Position numbers and translations under genes: made by a program. Positions 18,315-49,044 of a stretch of DNA of 64,000 bases are shown here, piece by piece; the first letter of the stretch is position 1; the number at the start of each line of letters is the position of its first letter. The DNA is from Thermoproteota archaeon (lineage in GTDB: Archaea; Korarchaeota; JAOZGF01; JAOZFZ01): assembly GCA_027492035.1 (NCBI GenBank), contig JAOZFT010000035.1, positions 62,001 to 126,000 of the forward strand, given 5' to 3'. Under the pieces are notes generated by a model. The model did not search any database. It saw nothing but the letters and a program-made list of their open reading frames with translations, and had not been told where the DNA came from.

Positions 18315-18331
18315 AAGGTTTTACAAACCTT
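18315..18331. promoter_or_regulatory. Inverted repeat upstream of fmdDBA, candidate operator
   Basis: AAGGTTT-TAC-AAACCTT is a perfect 7+3+7 inverted repeat 31 nt before the fmdD ATG. A possible TATA element (CTTAAATTTTA, minus strand) lies at about 18383-18394, which would put the transcript start near 18360 and the repeat in the early leader. Symmetry and position suit a dimeric regulator; an RNA hairpin is also possible. Confidence 0.45.
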
Positions 18332-27120: not shown

Positions 27121-27167
27121 CCCTAAAAACCTTTTTCTTCCAGTTTCAATTTTAGGTGGTGTTCTTT

Positions 27168-27950
27168 TTGGTTGCAGAAACGGCTTGGCGGGAATGGGTA
27201 ATTACAGAAATTGACTTCACTAAGTTTTCCTGTGAAAAAAAGAAGGTTAGACTTGCAGTTGAGAAACCTTTAACTCTTTACATTAACGGTAAACATTACG
27301 CAACCTTTCTAGTTACTCCAAATTTTGTAAAGGAACTGGTAATTGGCCACTTATTCTCTACAGGCGTAATTTCTTCTCTGCAAGACATTTCCTCTTTTCA
27401 ACAAATTTCTTCAAAAGTAATGGTTGAACTGAAAAGAGGTAACCTGGCTGAAACCAAAAGAATTTACAAGTTGATATCTACTGCTTGTGGCGCAATAGGG
27501 AAGGAGTCACTAATAAACGAAATTAAACTCCGTAAAATAAAATGCGAAAACTCTATAACTGTAGGAACAATTGTTGAAGTATACAAAGATGCAAACAAAA
27601 GGGCTGAAACACATAAATTAACAGCAGGTACACATATAGCAGGTGCTTACACCCTTCAAGGCAAAAATGTTTTCTTTGTGGAAGACATAGGGAGACATAA
27701 CGCCATAGATAAATTAATAGGGTTGACCATTACAAGGAAAAGGGAAGAAACTCCAATAATTGTCACTTCAGGCAGACCAACCATAGACCTGGTTTCAAAA
27801 ATAGTAAGAACTAAAACTCCCTTCTTGATCTCTTTTTCTAGACCAACTCACAGAGCTTCAAAACTGGCTGAAGAAAAAAACTTAACCTTAATCACAATTA
27901 AAAAGAAAATTTATTTATTCAGCGGCAAAGAAAGGGTGGAAACAAACTAG
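27168..27950 (+). CDS. fdhD: FdhD-type sulfurtransferase for Mo/W cofactor
   Basis: A 260-residue FdhD homologue: NFVKELVIGHLFSTGVI, LISTACGAIGKESL, HKLTAGTHIAGAY, VFFVEDIGRHNAIDKLIG and VTSGRPTIDLVSKIVRTK. FdhD passes sulfur from a cysteine desulfurase to the bis-pterin Mo/W cofactor of formate dehydrogenases. The loop that reads CGVCG in E. coli is CGAIG here, so only the first cysteine remains. I choose the TTG at 27168, nine nt after AGGTG. Clients could be Fmd in this window or a formate dehydrogenase elsewhere. A cysteine-synthase-like gene follows on the same strand. Confidence 0.87.
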   Translation: MVAETAWREWVITEIDFTKFSCEKKKVRLAVEKPLTLYINGKHYATFLVTPNFVKELVIGHLFSTGVISSLQDISSFQQISSKVMVELKRGNLAETKRIYKLISTACGAIGKESLINEIKLRKIKCENSITVGTIVEVYKDANKRAETHKLTAGTHIAGAYTLQGKNVFFVEDIGRHNAIDKLIGLTITRKREETPIIVTSGRPTIDLVSKIVRTKTPFLISFSRPTHRASKLAEEKNLTLITIKKKIYLFSGKERVETN

Positions 27951-28192: not shown

Positions 28193-29203
28193 TTGAAATT
28201 TTATAAAAACATGCTTGAACTTGTTGGTAATACTCCTATCATTAAGCTTCAAAAGATAACTAAAAAAGTAGACGCTAATATTTATGTTAAATGTGAATAT
28301 TTCAACCCTAGTGGAAGCATAAAGGACAGGATAGCACTTAAAATGGTTGAAGAAGCTGAAAAAGAAGGTGAATTGAAAAAGGGAGGCGTAATTGTTGAAG
28401 TAACAAGCGGAAACACAGGGCCAGCACTGGCTTTTGTAGGGGCCGTTAAAGGATATAAAGTCCATATTTTCATCCCTTCACAATGGACAGGAACCTACAA
28501 CCCGGAAGACAGAGTAAAAACGATGAAAATATATGGTGCAAAAGTAACCCCTTTCCTAACTGAAAAATATGAAGAAATCTTCCAAGGCTTATCTGAAAAC
28601 GAAGCAGCAGCAGCAACAATAGCTGTAGGATTGAAGGAATGCTATGAATTCGAAAAAAGAAATAATTTGGTGTGGTGGCCGAATCAACTCTGTAACAGAA
28701 ACAATGTTTTAGCTCATAAAGAATCAACAGGTAAAGAAATAATTGAACAACTTAACGGAGAAATTGATGCTTGGGTTGCTTCTGTAGGCACAGGCGGAAC
28801 CTTACTTGGGGTGGCTGAGGCATTAAAGGAAGAAATAGGAAACGTAAAAACAGTGGCTGTTGAACCTGAAGATGCAAGAGTTACAGAATGGGCTGAGAAA
28901 AAATTAATGAGTAAATTCATGAAACAACTTAATCTTCCACAAAGGAAATCAATAATGGAAATAGCTTTAGAAAAGGGGGTACCTGACAAGGTAATAAGAG
29001 TCAGTCATGAAGAAGCAAGAAAAATGGCTAACAAACTATGTAAAGAAGAAGGATTATTCTGTGGCATATCTTCCGGAGCAAATGTTTATGCAGCCTTGAA
29101 AGCAGCTAAGGAAATAGGTGAAGGAGCAAATATTGTAACTGTTCTAGTGGACAGCAGAGACAGGTACTTTCCTGAGTACCCAAACGAACAGTACACCATC
29201 TAA
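28193..29203 (+). CDS. PLP-dependent cysteine synthase-like protein
   Basis: A 336-residue fold-type II PLP enzyme. NPSGSIKDRIAL carries the PLP-binding lysine, VTSGNTGPALAF the substrate loop, SVGTGGTLLGVAEAL the phosphate loop and LFCGISSGANVYAAL the C-terminal family segment. It resembles cysteine synthase/cystathionine beta-synthase without CBS domains. Members use O-acetylserine or O-phosphoserine, or can release sulfur. The TTG start is fixed by GAGGTG eight nt upstream. Its place between fdhD and a MobA-like regulator fusion hints at a link between cysteine sulfur and the Mo/W cofactor, though ordinary cysteine synthesis is the simpler reading. Confidence 0.83.
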   Translation: MKFYKNMLELVGNTPIIKLQKITKKVDANIYVKCEYFNPSGSIKDRIALKMVEEAEKEGELKKGGVIVEVTSGNTGPALAFVGAVKGYKVHIFIPSQWTGTYNPEDRVKTMKIYGAKVTPFLTEKYEEIFQGLSENEAAAATIAVGLKECYEFEKRNNLVWWPNQLCNRNNVLAHKESTGKEIIEQLNGEIDAWVASVGTGGTLLGVAEALKEEIGNVKTVAVEPEDARVTEWAEKKLMSKFMKQLNLPQRKSIMEIALEKGVPDKVIRVSHEEARKMANKLCKEEGLFCGISSGANVYAALKAAKEIGEGANIVTVLVDSRDRYFPEYPNEQYTI

Positions 29204-29535: not shown

Positions 29536-30936
29536 TTGAAAACGGAGAAAGTAGAAATGAGTTTAGACCAAGAAATTATTTCTTCCTTTAAAAAACTTGG
29601 TTTAACAGAGTATGAAGCCAAGACTTACTTAACTTTAGTTAAGAAAGCAGAAGCTTCTCCTTTAGAGATAACATTAGCTTCTAAAGTTCCTCAACCTAAA
29701 GTTTATACTTCCCTCAACTCTTTAGCAGCAAAAGGGTTAGTTGAAGTGGTTAGTGAGAGACCTAGAAAATGTAAAGCTGTAAACATAAGAGAAGCTGTCA
29801 GGAGGCTTTTTGAAAAAAAAATAACTGAACTAGGTGAAAACGCCAAAAAAATAATTGAGAAAACAATTAAGGAGGAGTTAGAGGGAAAAATTCAGCCTCA
29901 TGAAATATATAACTTAATAGGGGAGGCTGAAACAAAAAAGAAATTGATAGATATGCTATCCCTTGCAGAAAAAGAAGTTTTATTAGCAACTAAAAACTTA
30001 GAAATTCTTAGGTTTAAGAAAATAAAGGATGTGCTTTCCAAGTTAGCAATGAAAGGGGTGGAATTTAAGGTTTTGGTTGAGTTCGACTCTTTAGATACAG
30101 AAACCCTTCTTTTTCTAAAAAATTTTGGGACAAGAGTGGTTGATGTGTTGGAGGAACAGTCCCTTGTCACAGTTGATGGAAAGATAGCAATTACTACTTC
30201 GGTAATCGAAACTGGAATAGGGCCTTCGGTTTGGTTCTCAACCTTTACAACCTGTACTGAATGCGTAAAGGCTTATGTGCAGAAACTCAACTCTGCATGG
30301 CTTAAAGGTTCTAAACTTCCTCAAGAAACAAGGAATAAAGGAGTAAAAATAGCAGCTATAGTGCTTGCAGCAGGGAAACCAAGTTCAGAAAACAAAAACG
30401 TACTTCTTTATCCTTGGAGGAACAAACCAGTAATTTGTCACGTAATAGAAGCATTAATGTTTTCTGATGTCGACGAAATAGTGGTAGTAACAGGTTATCA
30501 ATCCAAAAAAATACAGAAGGTAATAAATGAAAGATTTAGCAATGTTTCATTTGTTCATAATAAAAACTACGGTGAAGGGATGCTTTCCTCTTTTAAGAAG
30601 GGACTTGAAAAAGTTAAAGAGTCAGATGCTGTTCTTCTAATGCTTGGAGACCAACCCTTCATTGAACCATCAATAATAAACGAAATGATAAAGGAATTTA
30701 AACGAAATAAAGAAAAGAAAAAAGTCATAAACCCAGTGTTCAAAGGAAAAAGAGGACATCCTGTGCTTATCTCTTCCCATTTATATAAAGAAATACTGGG
30801 CACAAACAATAAGAAAACTGTAAGGGAAGTTTTAAACCAATACAAGGAGTCCACAGTACTAATTGAAGGGAAAGATTGGGTTTTAATGGATGTAAACACA
30901 ATTAAAGACTTAGAAAAAGCCGAAAAAATAATTTAA
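29536..30936 (+). CDS. TrmB-family regulator fused to a MobA/MocA-like nucleotidyltransferase domain
   Basis: A 466-residue two-part protein. Residues 1 to about 255 form a TrmB regulator: a winged helix (LGLTEYEAKTYLTLVKK, PQPKVYTSLNSLAAKGLVE), a coiled linker, and the phospholipase-D-like TrmB C-domain. Residues about 268-466 are a MobA/MocA-type NTP-transferase fold (AAIVLAAGKP, EIVVVTGYQSKKI, VLLMLGDQPFIEP, GKRGHPVLIS, MDVNTIKDLEKA). The usual LAAGxSxRMGxxK nucleotide loop is LAAGKPSSENKNVLLYP, lacking the Arg-Met-Gly and probably the catalytic lysine. It may therefore sense a nucleotide, pterin cofactor or sugar rather than catalyse transfer. TTG start. Confidence 0.82.
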   Translation: MKTEKVEMSLDQEIISSFKKLGLTEYEAKTYLTLVKKAEASPLEITLASKVPQPKVYTSLNSLAAKGLVEVVSERPRKCKAVNIREAVRRLFEKKITELGENAKKIIEKTIKEELEGKIQPHEIYNLIGEAETKKKLIDMLSLAEKEVLLATKNLEILRFKKIKDVLSKLAMKGVEFKVLVEFDSLDTETLLFLKNFGTRVVDVLEEQSLVTVDGKIAITTSVIETGIGPSVWFSTFTTCTECVKAYVQKLNSAWLKGSKLPQETRNKGVKIAAIVLAAGKPSSENKNVLLYPWRNKPVICHVIEALMFSDVDEIVVVTGYQSKKIQKVINERFSNVSFVHNKNYGEGMLSSFKKGLEKVKESDAVLLMLGDQPFIEPSIINEMIKEFKRNKEKKKVINPVFKGKRGHPVLISSHLYKEILGTNNKKTVREVLNQYKESTVLIEGKDWVLMDVNTIKDLEKAEKII

Positions 30937-33043: not shown

Positions 33044-33667
33044 TTACAATGTTTCTTGGACGAACGAGTTCTCTTTCGGCAAAATCTCTTTTTTATAAAG
33101 GGTTAAGCAAGAATTGCAGCAGAAGTATAGTTCTCTGTCATCAACAACCAATTTAAGAGGTTCTTCCTTTATTTCCTTCCCGCAATATGTACATGAAACT
33201 TTAACTCCGAATCCTGGCCTTAATTTCGGCCCGTAATCCTCTTTAAGTGTTTTAACAACCACAAATGTGTTAACAGTCTCAATTCCTTCTATTTTACTCA
33301 ATTTATTCCTCAAAAACTCTTGGTAACCGGAGAAACTAGGTGTTGAAACTTTGAGGATTAAATCGAAAGATCCACTAGTCATATATAAACCGGTAACGTC
33401 CTCTATTCTGAGAATATCCTTAATAGCTTTGTTCATTAATGACACCTTTGTTTTTAACCCTATAAAGAAAGTTAATCCACCAATAAGTTTTTCAGGGTCT
33501 ATTTCTACCGTGAAACCTTTAATTACACCGAGAGATCTCAATTTTCTAACCCTATTCTTTACAGTAGGTAAGCTGACACCTGTCTTTTCAGCGATTTTTG
33601 AGAAACTCATCCTGGCATCTTTCTGTAAGAGAATCATTATCTCTATATCTAAATTATCAAGTATCAA
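33044..33667 (-). CDS. Lrp/AsnC regulator with C-terminal TRASH metal-binding domain
   Basis: A 207-residue regulator. Residues 1-60 are an AsnC-type helix-turn-helix (ARMSFSKIAEKTGVSLPTVKNRVRKL), 65-140 a RAM ligand domain, and 160-200 a TRASH domain (CTYCGKEI then FCCNSCLTLYKK). TRASH-Lrp proteins next to copper ATPases are known in archaea, where they sense copper. Here the copA gene is divergent 250 bp away. A TATA element at 33718-33727 and the palindrome CCTCATGAGG at 33681-33690 sit in its own promoter region. Start TTG. Autoregulation is likely but inferred. Confidence 0.88.
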   Translation of the reverse strand: MILDNLDIEIMILLQKDARMSFSKIAEKTGVSLPTVKNRVRKLRSLGVIKGFTVEIDPEKLIGGLTFFIGLKTKVSLMNKAIKDILRIEDVTGLYMTSGSFDLILKVSTPSFSGYQEFLRNKLSKIEGIETVNTFVVVKTLKEDYGPKLRPGFGVKVSCTYCGKEIKEEPLKLVVDDRELYFCCNSCLTLYKKEILPKENSFVQETL

Positions 33668-33916: not shown

Positions 33917-36532
33917 ATGACAGAAAATCGTAAGAAAAATTTTGAACTCAAAATATCTGACATGTTTTCTGAAGCTCATGCTTTAGAAATTAAGAATACC
34001 TTACTCAGCCTAAATGGGGTTATCGACGCAAAAGTTAGTTTCAAAAATGGGACTGTTAAGGTGAAATATGACCCTACAAAATTAAAAATTGCTGACATAG
34101 AAAAAGCAGTAAAAAATGCTGGTTATAAAGTAATCAAAGAAGTTACTTTGAAAATTGGAGGAATGACTTGTGCCAGTTGTGTGAGGACAATTGAGAACTC
34201 CCTTAAAAAATTAGATGGCACCTTAAGTGTTAATGTTAACCTTAACGCTGAAGAAGCACATGTTGTTTATAACCCGGAAAAAACCACAGTAAAAAATATG
34301 AAGAAAGCTGTTGAGGAGACAGGTTACCACTACCTAGGGGTTAAGGGAGAAATAGAAAATTTAGAGGGAAAAGTAAAGAAAAGAAACTTAAGAGATAAAC
34401 GCAGCAAATTTCTTGTAGGTTTTGTTGTAGGCATTCCCTTAATGCTTCTCAAATATGTTCCAATTAACACTTCCTCTCTACTATCCTACTCAACATTAGC
34501 TGTTTCATTTCCAGCCTTTATTTATATAAGTTACCCCATTTTCGCTGCTGCATATCGTTCCATTAAGAATATGAACCTTAACATGGATGTTATGTACTCC
34601 ATGGGGATAGGCGTAGCCTTTACCTCCAGTATCTTAAGCACCTTTAACATACTTTCTAAAGAATTTTCATTTTACGATACAGCAATTCTTCTCGCTGCAT
34701 TCCTTACAGTTGGGCGATATTTGGAAGAAAAGGCAAAGGGGAAAACTTCAGATGCAATAAAGAAACTAATTAATTTGCAGCCACAGAAAGCCATTGTACT
34801 ACGTAACAGTAACGAAATCGAAATACCTGTAAAAAATGTTCAAATAAACGACATAATTCTAGTGAAACCGGGAGGAAAAATACCTGTAGACGGTGAAGTT
34901 ATTGAAGGCGAAAGCTATGTAGATGAATCAATGATTACAGGGGAACCTGTCCCTGTTTTGAAAAGGGAAGGGGACGAAGTTATTGGTGGAACCATCAACA
35001 AGAACAGCACAATTAAATTTAAAGCGACAAAAGTAGGGAGGGAGACTTTACTCTCACAAATCATAAAACTAGTTGAAGAAGCCCAAAGTTCGAAACCACC
35101 TATTCAAAGGATTGCGGATAAAGCAGTAAGGTATTTTATCCCTGTAGTGTTAACAGTTGCAATTTCTTCCTTCATTGGCTGGTACTTAATTTTACATAGC
35201 ACCTTGCTTTTTGCTTTGACCTGTATGATTTCAATACTTGTAGTGGCATGTCCTTGCGCTCTTGGACTTGCTACACCTACAGCTGTCACTGTAGGTATTG
35301 GACGTGGAGCAGAGCTGGGTGTCCTTATTAAACAGGGTGAAGCTCTTGAAAGATGCGAGAAACTGACAACTGTGGTATTTGACAAAACCGGAACCCTCAC
35401 AAAAGGTAAACCTGAAGTTACAGATTTAGTGAGTGTAGGAATTAATGAAAAGAAACTATTGAAGTTAGTGGCTAGTGTTGAAAAAAGTTCTCAGCACCCG
35501 TTAGCTGAAGCTATTGTGAAAAAAGCTCAGGAAGAAGGTTTAAAGCTTGAAGAAAGTGAAAACTTTGACACATTTGAAGGAAAAGGGGTAACAGCAAAAA
35601 TAAATGGGAAAGAAGTCCTTGTGGGAAGTAAAAAGTTCTTAAAGGAAAGGAATATCCCCTGCCCTGAAGAAATTGAAGAAAAATTGTTTCAACTTGAAAA
35701 TGAAGGAAAAACAGTGATTTTAGTTTCGTTAAGTGGCAAAATCTGCGGTGCAATAGCTGTTACTGACAGATTAAGAGAAAAAGCCAAGGAGGCAATAAAA
35801 GAACTTAAGAAAATGAAACTTGATGTTGTTATGATTACGGGTGACAACGCCAGAACTGCCTACACCATTGCTAAACAAATAGGGATCAAAAAGGTATTAG
35901 CAGAGGTCCTGCCGCAAGATAAAGTCAAGGAAATAAAGAAACTTCAAGAAAAAGGGGAAGTAGTGGCTTTTGTAGGTGACGGAATAAATGATGCCCCTGC
36001 ACTTGCAAGTGCAGATGTAGGTATTGCAATAGGTAGTGGTACAGACGTAGCAATTGAAACAGGTGAAATAATACTTGTAAAGGATAACCTTTTAGATGTT
36101 GTTGCAGCGCTGCAGCTAAGTAAGAAAGTAATGTCAAGGATAAAACAAAACCTGTTCTGGGCTTTCGCGTACAACGCTGCCTTGATTCCTATGGCAGCCG
36201 GGATACTACATCCCCTCTTAAAAGTTGATTTTAGGCCTGAATTCGCAGGACTTGCAATGGCAATGAGCTCTGTAACAGTTGTAACACTTTCTCTTCTGCT
36301 ACGGAAATATGTACCACCTATAAAGAAAAATTTTGGAACCGTGAAAAAACATGTGAAGGAGGCGAGAAAAATGGTTGTGGACCCTGTTTGTAAAATGGTT
36401 GTAGATGAAGAAACAGCAAGATTTAGAAGTGAATATAGAGGTAAGACGTACTACTTCTGCAGCTTAAGTTGTAAGGAAGCATTTGATGAAAACCCTGAAA
36501 AATATGTTGGCAAGGTTCTTTCGCACAAGTGA
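33917..36532 (+). CDS. copA: Cu(+)-exporting P1B-type ATPase with C-terminal YHS domain
   Basis: An 871-residue P1B ATPase. Two HMA domains lead: the first (residues about 10-72) lacks CxxC, the second has GMTCASC. Then come the transmembrane CPC motif ([15 protein letters not shown]), TGEPVPV, the phosphorylation site [27 protein letters not shown], and YN plus MSS in the last helices, the Cu(+) set. Residues about 820-870 are a YHS/TRASH-like domain ([20 protein letters not shown]) that may bind the metal or pass it on. AGAGGT precedes the ATG. The divergent Lrp-TRASH gene is its probable regulator. Ag(+) is an alternative substrate. Confidence 0.93.
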
Positions 36533-42471: not shown

Positions 42472-43476
42472 TTGATAGGGATGATTCTTTGTGGAGGTTT
42501 CGGTAAAAGATTCGGTTCAGTCACTAAAGAAACTCCAAAATCATTGTTGGAAATAAAAAAGGGTTACACCATTCTAGATAGGCAAATTTTCGATTTCTCC
42601 AGAGCAGATGTAAAAAAGGTTTACCTTTTAACAGGTTATTTAAGCAAGAAAATAGAGAAAAGATATGGAGACGGGTTTTTAGATGTTGAAATAAAATACA
42701 TAAAAGAGGATGAACCCCTAGGAACTCTTCATGCAATTAATTTAGGAATTAAAAATGTAAAAGAGGATGCAATAATAAGAAATGGAGATGTGATTGCTGA
42801 TTTTAACCTTAAAAGAATGATTCAGCAGAGCAGAAAATCTAATTTTCCTTTAACAATGTACATAACTAAAATGCCAAGCCCCTACGGCGTAATTGAGCTA
42901 GAAGGGGATAGAATTAAGTCTTTCAGGGAAAAACCATTACTTAACTACTACATAAACGCTGGAGTTTACTATGTTAAAAAAGAAGTTTTTCCCTTTTTCA
43001 GTAAATATAAGGAAGGAGACGTGGAAAAAACAATTTTTCCTTTATTAGCTGAAGAAGGGAAAATTGGTTTCTATGTAGAAAACAGTGTTTTTTGGAGAAG
43101 TATTGACACGTTTAAGGATTTAAACTTTGTAAGGGAAGAGTACAGGAACAGAACAGATAAACCTTGGGGTTACGAGAAATTACTCATTAAAACAGAACAT
43201 TACTTAATGAAGAAACTCTATATTATGGAAAATTATCAAACTTCTTTCCATTACCACAGGGAAAAGGATGAAGCAATGTTTGTACAGTCAGGAAAAGGCA
43301 CAGTAGTTTTTGAAAACAAAAAGAAAGAATTTAAAACAGGAGATGTAATAAGAATTAAACCCAACACTCCCCACTCAATCAACGCAAGTGAAAACACGAT
43401 TATTTTTGAGGTTTCAACTCCACATTTAGGGGACACAGTTAGAATAAAGGATTTTTACACTAGATTAAAACTTTAA
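42472..43476 (+). CDS. Sugar-1-phosphate nucleotidyltransferase fused to a cupin domain
   Basis: A 334-residue fusion. Residues 1-225 are a sugar nucleotidyltransferase with CGGFGKRFGSVTKETPKSLLEI, GTLHAINLGI, IRNGDVIADFNL, FREKPLLNYYINAGVYYV. Residues about 230-334 are a ManC/PMI-type cupin (KPWGYEKLL, SFHYHREKDEAMFVQSG, TGDVIRIKPNTPHSI). The arrangement resembles bifunctional mannose-1-phosphate guanylyltransferase/phosphomannose isomerase but is shorter than the usual 450-480 residues. It probably makes an NDP-sugar for glycans; the sugar is not certain. TTG start, with an ATG three codons later. Confidence 0.82.
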   Translation: MIGMILCGGFGKRFGSVTKETPKSLLEIKKGYTILDRQIFDFSRADVKKVYLLTGYLSKKIEKRYGDGFLDVEIKYIKEDEPLGTLHAINLGIKNVKEDAIIRNGDVIADFNLKRMIQQSRKSNFPLTMYITKMPSPYGVIELEGDRIKSFREKPLLNYYINAGVYYVKKEVFPFFSKYKEGDVEKTIFPLLAEEGKIGFYVENSVFWRSIDTFKDLNFVREEYRNRTDKPWGYEKLLIKTEHYLMKKLYIMENYQTSFHYHREKDEAMFVQSGKGTVVFENKKKEFKTGDVIRIKPNTPHSINASENTIIFEVSTPHLGDTVRIKDFYTRLKL

Positions 43477-47925: not shown

Positions 47926-48012
47926 AAACTCCTTTTTTAAACAGATTTCGATCTCCTTCAGCAAAAGAGGGTGCTACCTTTCAACAGTTTAAAAAATTTA
48001 AAGGAAGTAGGA

Positions 48013-49044
48013 ATGACCACCCTTATTCTACTTGCAGGTGGTGAAAGCAAAAGGTTCCATGAACCTAATAAACCTAAAATTGACAAAGCCCTGCTTAAAG
48101 TAGGAAATAAAAGGTTTTTAGAGAGAATAATTGAAAATGTAGGCCGGGAAGTTGAAGAGATTATTGTGACGGTTAATACTGAAGAGAGGAAGAGACTATA
48201 TGAAAAGGTTTTATGGCACTTAAGCAGCAAATTTGAAATCAAAATTTTGAAAGATGCGAAATCTCAAATTAAAGGCCCGTTAAACGGAATAAGGACAGGT
48301 CTAGAGTATTCTGAAGGGTCGCTATGTTTAACTCTGCCTGTTGATGTACCCTTTATTAAACCTGAAGTTGTGAGGGAAATCTTAAAGGAAGCTGTTAAAT
48401 GGGAAACCACAACACTAATTTGGCCAAATGGGGGCATTGAACCCTTAATAGCGACTTATAAAAGGGAATATGCTGTGAAAGCATCTAAAATACTTTTATC
48501 TTTCAAAAGGTCAAGACCTGACGACTTAGTAAGGGCTGCGTCTGACACCTTCTTTTTAAACGTAAATGCTTTGAGGAAGTTTGATCCAGAACTAGAAAGT
48601 TTCAGAAACATAAATTCACTTAAAGACTTGATTAAGAAGGATGGAAGGAAATGGCAGGAAGGGGAACTAAAGAATTCGGTACTTATAAAAGCTGAAGAAA
48701 AAATTTTCCATGGGAGCCACTTGTTTAACAAGGAGGAACTAATTCTTTTAAACAACACTTTCTTCCCAGGTGAGAGAAAAAGAAACTTTTTCTGGGTTGG
48801 TTTAATTTCAAACTTTTTTGGTGAAAAAACCAAAAAGAGGGAAGTTGCAGAAGAATTTTTAAAAGAAGCTTATGAAGCATTTACTAAAGAAAGAATGCTC
48901 TATATAAATAAAAAAGTGTATTTTCTAGCTTTCCACTCAGGAATTGATGCGTCAAAGTGCTACATGAAAATTTTTCGGGGAGAAAAGAATAAAGAATTAG
49001 AGAGGGAAATAAGTTTTTTTGCAAGCAAATTCAAAAACATTTGA
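48013..49044 (+). CDS. mobA: Molybdenum cofactor guanylyltransferase-like protein with C-terminal extension
   Basis: About 343 residues. Residues 1-200 are a MobA-type nucleotidyltransferase: TLILLAGGESKRF, a lysine in IDKALLKVG, KGPLNGIRTGLEY, LTLPVDVPFIKPEV. Residues about 205-343 are an extension without a domain I recognise (FHGSHLFNKEELILLNN, FFWVGLISNFFGEKT). MobA links GMP to molybdopterin to make the dinucleotide form used by Fmd and formate dehydrogenases. The ATG at 48013 follows AAGGAAG; a GTG 14 codons earlier is also possible. Substrate nucleotide not proven; other NTP-transferases share the fold. Confidence 0.75.
   Translation: MTTLILLAGGESKRFHEPNKPKIDKALLKVGNKRFLERIIENVGREVEEIIVTVNTEERKRLYEKVLWHLSSKFEIKILKDAKSQIKGPLNGIRTGLEYSEGSLCLTLPVDVPFIKPEVVREILKEAVKWETTTLIWPNGGIEPLIATYKREYAVKASKILLSFKRSRPDDLVRAASDTFFLNVNALRKFDPELESFRNINSLKDLIKKDGRKWQEGELKNSVLIKAEEKIFHGSHLFNKEELILLNNTFFPGERKRNFFWVGLISNFFGEKTKKREVAEEFLKEAYEAFTKERMLYINKKVYFLAFHSGIDASKCYMKIFRGEKNKELEREISFFASKFKNI

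Follow-up and report, generated by a model that had tools for sequence, protein, structure and literature searches.

The archaeal gene at positions 29536-30936 of the window (the whole stretch of 64,000 nucleotides analysed here) encodes a TrmBL2-like DNA-binding core fused to a MocA-like nucleotidyltransferase domain, which is predicted to be a maintained pseudoenzyme whose role is binding or contact and no longer catalysis. We propose, with about an even chance of being right, that the protein is a one-component regulator with a dead-MocA sensor of a cofactor species or a cytidine nucleotide, which would tune molybdoenzyme or cofactor genes. The sequence-only reading of this DNA had described a TrmB regulator fused to a degenerate MobA/MocA-like domain, and Pfam and NCBIfam matches, structure comparison and individual residue columns all agree with this description.

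Architecture of the fusion protein

ORF analysis gave a single, uninterrupted frame of 466 amino acids on the plus strand with a mechanical start at TTG 29536. The true start is probably ATG 29557, giving a protein of 459 amino acids, because this codon is preceded by GGAG and aligns with the Met of an orthologue from a second genome (G001, described below; the window genome is G000). Pfam recognized a TrmB domain (PF01978, 1e-19) at residues 19-84, with 70.5 bits against a cut-off of 25.6 (71.3 bits in the G001 orthologue), and a MobA-like NTP_transf_3 domain (PF12804, 1.9e-29, far above the cut-off) at residues 274-437. The gene and its parts are as follows.

29536-30936, plus strand: fusion gene, TrmBL2-like core and predicted MocA-like pseudoenzyme (ORF, Pfam, orthologue)
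29563-29787, plus strand: winged helix-turn-helix of the TrmB family, residues 10-84 (PF01978; model pLDDT mostly above 90)
29788-29889, plus strand: long helix, residues 85-118 (predicted helix 84-114/116)
29902-30321, plus strand: PLD-like subdomain, residues 123-262 (Foldseek matches to TrmBL2, TrmB and PLD folds)
30253-30264, plus strand: CxxC (Cys240, Cys243) within the PLD-like subdomain, in both fusions
30349-30936, plus strand: MocA-like nucleotidyltransferase domain, putatively degenerate in catalysis, residues 272-466 (PF12804, TIGR03310, 3d5n)
30364-30408, plus strand: former phosphate-binding loop LAAGKPSSENKNVLL, residues 277-291
30643-30660, plus strand: LGDQPF, residues 370-375, first metal-site Asp372 kept
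30745-30762, plus strand: GKRGHP, residues 404-409, substrate-side motif kept
30889-30912, plus strand: DVNTIKDL, residues 452-459, Asp452 kept and Asp454 replaced by Asn in both fusions

The last three motifs had been singled out as retained core segments in the sequence-only reading and are indeed present, and the RMG-type loop that it reported as lost has been replaced by LAAGKPSSENKNVLL. Each fusion contains exactly four cysteines, at identical places (Cys79, Cys240, Cys243 and Cys301), a possible site for a metal, a cluster or redox chemistry. Of these, Cys301 lies in the MocA part and is absent from the unfused relatives of the alignment.

Structure models of the protein had a mean pLDDT of 83 over the full length and 88 over residues 1-271. 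In Foldseek searches, the N-terminal 265 residues matched TrmBL2 (5bpd, E 6.2e-18) and Pyrococcus furiosus TrmB (3qph, 4.4e-12), and the PLD-like part matched the PLD folds of NucT and Zucchini. Over the whole core the TM-scores reached only about 0.45 and the rmsd was large; a different hinge between its two parts is the presumed cause. TrmBL2 (P. furiosus PF0496; PDB 5box, 5bpd and 5bqt) and TrmB (PDB 3qph and 2f5t) contain the same three elements as the fusion, winged helix-turn-helix, long helix and PLD-like subdomain, and agree with it in their order and length; by analogy with these proteins the helix at residues 85-118 is a probable dimerisation coiled coil. TrmB runs on from this point into a second, sugar-binding subdomain and TrmBL2 stops, whereas the fusion continues with the MocA-like domain. 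In P. furiosus TrmB the sugar binds in the cleft that separates the two effector subdomains, of which the C-terminal barrel is the second, and TrmBL2 lacks the last 70 residues that contain the sugar-binding domain (PMC4158304). No Pfam match to the C-terminal sugar-binding barrel was found in the fusion, and matches to NCBIfam models of TrmB end by residue 203. Thus, the core of the fusion ends at TrmBL2 length, and the MocA-like domain stands where TrmB has its barrel.

The C-terminal domain scored best against the NCBIfam MocA model (TIGR03310, 135.6 bits), below its equivalog cut-off of 186.45, followed by the DVU_1551 family (NF045665) with 135.0 bits against a cut-off of 315. MobA models gave 44 bits at best, and the sugar-type models at most 45 bits (GlmU) and 28.5 bits (NTP_transferase, PF00483), which argues against the possibility, raised in the earlier reading, that the domain belongs to the sugar nucleotidyltransferases. 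With MocA as the best match and a score short of membership, the domain is assigned from its sequence to a MocA-type rather than MobA-type ancestry. Structure comparison, as proposed earlier, agrees with a MocA-type ancestry: the modelled C-terminal 195 residues form a complete MocA-type fold, with matches to a MocA-like protein from Sulfolobus (3d5n; TM 0.92 on the target, rmsd of 1.8) and to the mycobacterial Rv0371c. The full fold and the LAAG, GMxSS, LGDQP and GHP motifs are common to the fusion, MocA, the DVU_1551 family and 3d5n, and the fused domain is about 40% identical to the unfused MocA of its own lineage. Unlike MocA, it lacks both basic residues of the phosphate loop (Arg and Lys) as well as the Asp of the second metal site, scores below the cut-off and is attached to a DNA-binding core. 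A phylogenetic tree did not resolve the origin of the fused domain among the archaeal MocAs.

The same fusion in a second genus

The sequence-only reading had suggested searching for the same fusion elsewhere, and one was found in G001 (Thermoproteota archaeon MAG Flange_M5_B4, contig JAOZFL010000070.1), which represents a second genus and together with the window genome makes up the genomes of the family compared (n=2). The orthologue has 466 amino acids, an identical architecture, junction and linker, and 56-57% identity to the window fusion, the highest identity (69%) being in the winged helix-turn-helix. No internal start codon before the nucleotidyltransferase domain is conserved between the two genes, and therefore one protein is expected; separate expression of the MocA part was considered and rejected on the same grounds.

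Both sequences apparently derive from metagenome assemblies and both genomes are drafts, and the G001 fusion spans two contigs, which share an overlap of 23 identical bases within the gene, with the TrmB/MocA junction inside one contig and the last 50-odd residues on the second. Although these circumstances might suggest that an assembly or frame artefact has fused two neighbouring genes, we regard this as practically excluded, because junction, length and linker are alike in two genera at an identity that points to neither a frameshift nor a chimera, the G001 junction lies within a single contig and no internal start is conserved.

No third fusion was found among 394 archaeal genomes, nor in 29 genomes of the host phylum or 28 genomes of the phylum in which the closest unfused MocAs occur, these sets overlapping with one another. 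Strict TrmB peptide patterns, run against 84,980 species in a scan that would miss diverged members, returned G001 alone, and plasmids gave no match spanning both domains. Long open frames around TrmB matches in two further genomes (G017 and G019) turned out to be open stretches upstream of ordinary TrmB genes. In a member of the same order (G002, 71% complete), MocA occurs unfused, adjacent to xdhC and moeA, and the fusion is missing.

Loss of catalytic residues under retained selection

The two fusions were aligned with 14 unfused proteins, namely 12 archaeal relatives and two solved structures. Thirteen columns are invariant in all 14 unfused proteins. Ten of these columns are retained in both fusions, and three have changed: Arg284 (Ser in the window, Phe in G001), Lys289 (Val and Ile, respectively) and Asp454 (Asn in both). 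The first two belong to the LAAGxSxRMGxxK loop, whose Arg and Lys we take to be nucleotide-phosphate contacts, and the third lies in what is presumably the C-terminal metal-site motif. The changes at Lys289 and Asp454 come in addition to the RMG-type loop noted in the sequence-only reading. The GMxSS, LGDQP and GHP pocket motifs are strictly kept. The chance that three losses all fall on the four presumed catalytic columns among 13 is 4/286 (approximately 1.4%, calculated post hoc).

The fused domain is nevertheless conserved at the level of a working MocA, with 58-59% identity between the genera against 53-54% for the unfused MocA orthologues. Its codon positions 1, 2 and 3 are 66, 82 and 43% identical, a pattern of purifying selection. 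Both genomes also carry an intact unfused MocA beside xdhC, and that of the window genome reaches 198.7 bits against the MocA cut-off of 186.45. Loss of catalytic residues together with this conservation indicates a maintained pseudoenzyme, and the idea of a former MocA/MobA-type enzyme turned non-catalytic is thus supported by the changes in the loop and metal site.

Genomic context and operator search

The fusion stands by itself in the window. A gap of 332 bp separates it from the cysteine-synthase-like gene upstream, and the metallo-beta-lactamase gene on its other side runs towards it. The upstream neighbours of the fusion are as follows.

28193-29203, plus strand: cysteine-synthase-like PLP enzyme, immediate upstream neighbour (ORF, Pfam, NCBIfam)
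27156-27950, plus strand: fdhD, one gene beyond the PLP enzyme (Pfam)

In G001, moeA lies divergently upstream of the fusion and a NikR-like gene is nearby; 16 nt downstream there is a short larC, followed by the large subunit of a xanthine-oxidase-family molybdohydroxylase and a 2Fe-2S subunit, this downstream half depending on the contig join through the 23-bp overlap. It is the enzymes of the xanthine oxidase family that can use the MocA product, the cytidine dinucleotide (PMC2997495). The G001 context supports a link to the molybdenum cofactor. The link therefore draws on the ancestry of the domain and on one of the two neighbourhoods, clear in G001 and weak in the window. Sugar genes adjoin the fusion in neither genome. 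The short larC of G001 (L036:194-967, G001:C183) covers positions 2-235 of 375 of the nickel-insertion family, and a full-length larC is present elsewhere in that genome (C76). Between the NikR-like gene and moeA, a gene at L035:10068-10478 (G001:C193) encodes a protein of 136 amino acids without Pfam or NCBIfam matches.

A search for a common operator in 13 upstream regions, including those ahead of the fusion, moeA, mocA, xdhC, xdh, fdhD and fwd genes, revealed no gapped palindrome exceeding shuffled sequence; where DNA is AT-rich, such a search is insensitive. Near 18315 and 27084, earlier put forward as targets of the fusion, the inverted repeats are short, AT-rich, imperfect and unlike each other, and they look like the product of chance in AT-rich sequence. 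The proposed control of nearby fdhD, mobA or fmd genes also failed to find support, since no shared operator stood out above chance and in G001 fdhD is not near the fusion, adjoining an aldehyde ferredoxin oxidoreductase gene. The sequence-only reading had further seen in the domain a sensor of the Mo/W pterin cofactor or its nucleotide; the molybdenum part of this idea is strengthened by moeA and the molybdohydroxylase of G001, and the ligand is one that we infer.

Proposed function and alternatives

In the proposed mechanism, the TrmBL2-like N-terminal core (winged helix-turn-helix and PLD-like subdomain), probably as a dimer, would bind DNA, as its family and fold suggest. The C-terminal former MocA, at the place of the sugar subdomain of TrmB, appears to have lost catalysis and kept the fold and most of the pocket, and would most likely bind Mo-MPT, its cytidine dinucleotide (MCD) or a cytidine nucleotide. 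Occupancy by the ligand would alter DNA binding by shifting the DNA-binding halves, in the manner of the TrmB sugar subdomain, and molybdoenzyme or cofactor genes might in this way be tuned to cofactor supply, in either direction of regulation. The more specific claim that a transcription factor senses Mo-MPT or its cytidine dinucleotide directly, through a dead copy of the enzyme that makes the dinucleotide, seems to us somewhat less than evenly probable. MocA presumably uses the Lys and Arg of the phosphate loop to contact the CTP phosphates, and their loss suggests, tentatively, a monophosphate-bearing or dinucleotide ligand (Mo-MPT, CMP or MCD) rather than CTP. However, removal of these contacts could also mean that nucleotide binding itself was lost. 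The cofactor reading is also weakened by the small number of sequences (n=2), by the molybdenum neighbourhood being confined to one of the two genomes, and by nikR and larC in G001, which would equally suggest nickel.

Among the alternatives, the one that survives best, though we consider it unlikely, is that the pseudo-MocA docks with MoeA, XdhC or the working MocA and reports traffic on the assembly line, no small molecule being sensed. Protein contacts of this kind have been described for bacterial MobA, MoeA and XdhC (PMC2997495), and a fold predicted to be kept with catalysis lost, together with the divergent moeA beside the G001 fusion, would suit such a role, but the strict retention of GMxSS, LGDQP and GHP is more than surface docking needs.

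It is less likely still that the domain senses another nucleotide-linked metabolite, for example in the nickel-pincer cofactor pathway, and serves nickel or general cofactor control. The position of the G001 fusion just ahead of the short larC, with the NikR-like gene nearby, fits this reading. However, the window genome has its larC (G000:C12) away from the fusion, moeA and the molybdohydroxylase also flank the G001 fusion, and MocA wins by a wide margin over other characterised transferases.

Slightly less probable again is retained enzyme activity, the protein being a divergent nucleotidyltransferase that relies on other residues and is autoregulatory through its DNA-binding part. BirA and NadR do combine enzyme and repressor, and Asp372, Asp452 and most of the active-site scaffold are kept in the fusion. 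Against this, the loop Arg and Lys found in every unfused protein are missing from both fusions, and their replacements are inconsistent (Ser/Phe and Val/Ile).

Most targets of the TrmB sensors characterised so far are genes of sugar and central carbon metabolism (PMC4158304), but a sugar-responsive TrmB regulator of the ordinary kind, whose C-terminal domain is an accidental passenger, is very improbable here, given the missing sugar-binding subdomain, the TrmBL2-length core, the absence of adjoining sugar genes and the purifying selection on the supposed passenger.

Relation to known regulators

Enzyme-derived one-component regulators are well known and include MocR/PdxR, ROK repressors, SorC/CggR, BirA and NadR. 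Like the fusion, they combine a winged helix-turn-helix or another DNA-binding domain with an enzyme fold as sensor (aminotransferase-like in MocR/PdxR, sugar-kinase-like in ROK repressors), but in none of them is this known to be a MocA/MobA nucleotidyltransferase. Molybdenum genes are controlled by molybdate through ModE, which senses it by MOP domains, or by the cofactor through the Moco riboswitch, an RNA; neither is related to the fusion protein. The sequence-only reading knew of no regulator of this build, and no description of TrmB with a MobA/MocA or nucleotidyltransferase domain was found in the open-access literature. Thus, sensors derived from enzymes are established, and the combination of TrmB with MocA is apparently new, at least to us.

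We know of no protein regulator that reads the molybdenum cofactor itself, ModE reading molybdate. The known readout of the cofactor is an RNA, and the great lability of the cofactor has made the ligand of that RNA difficult to establish. If the fusion does sense the cofactor, it would be the protein counterpart of the Moco riboswitch, and a dead MocA on a DNA-binding domain offers a defined, expressible protein with which the question of cofactor readout can be asked directly. The fusion would also indicate that the TrmB core, best known for sugar sensing, can exchange its sugar-binding part for a sensor derived from an enzyme.

Other genes in the window

Further genes of the window also drew attention. 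A MobA-like protein (47971-49044) has about 135 extra C-terminal residues without a Pfam match. An Lrp/AsnC regulator with a C-terminal TRASH metal-binding domain (33044-33667) is divergent from a heavy-metal P-type ATPase (33917-36532), the two resembling the archaeal pair of CopR and copper exporter. At 42472-43476, a sugar nucleotidyltransferase-like domain is apparently joined in one frame to a cupin-like C-terminal part, as judged by eye.
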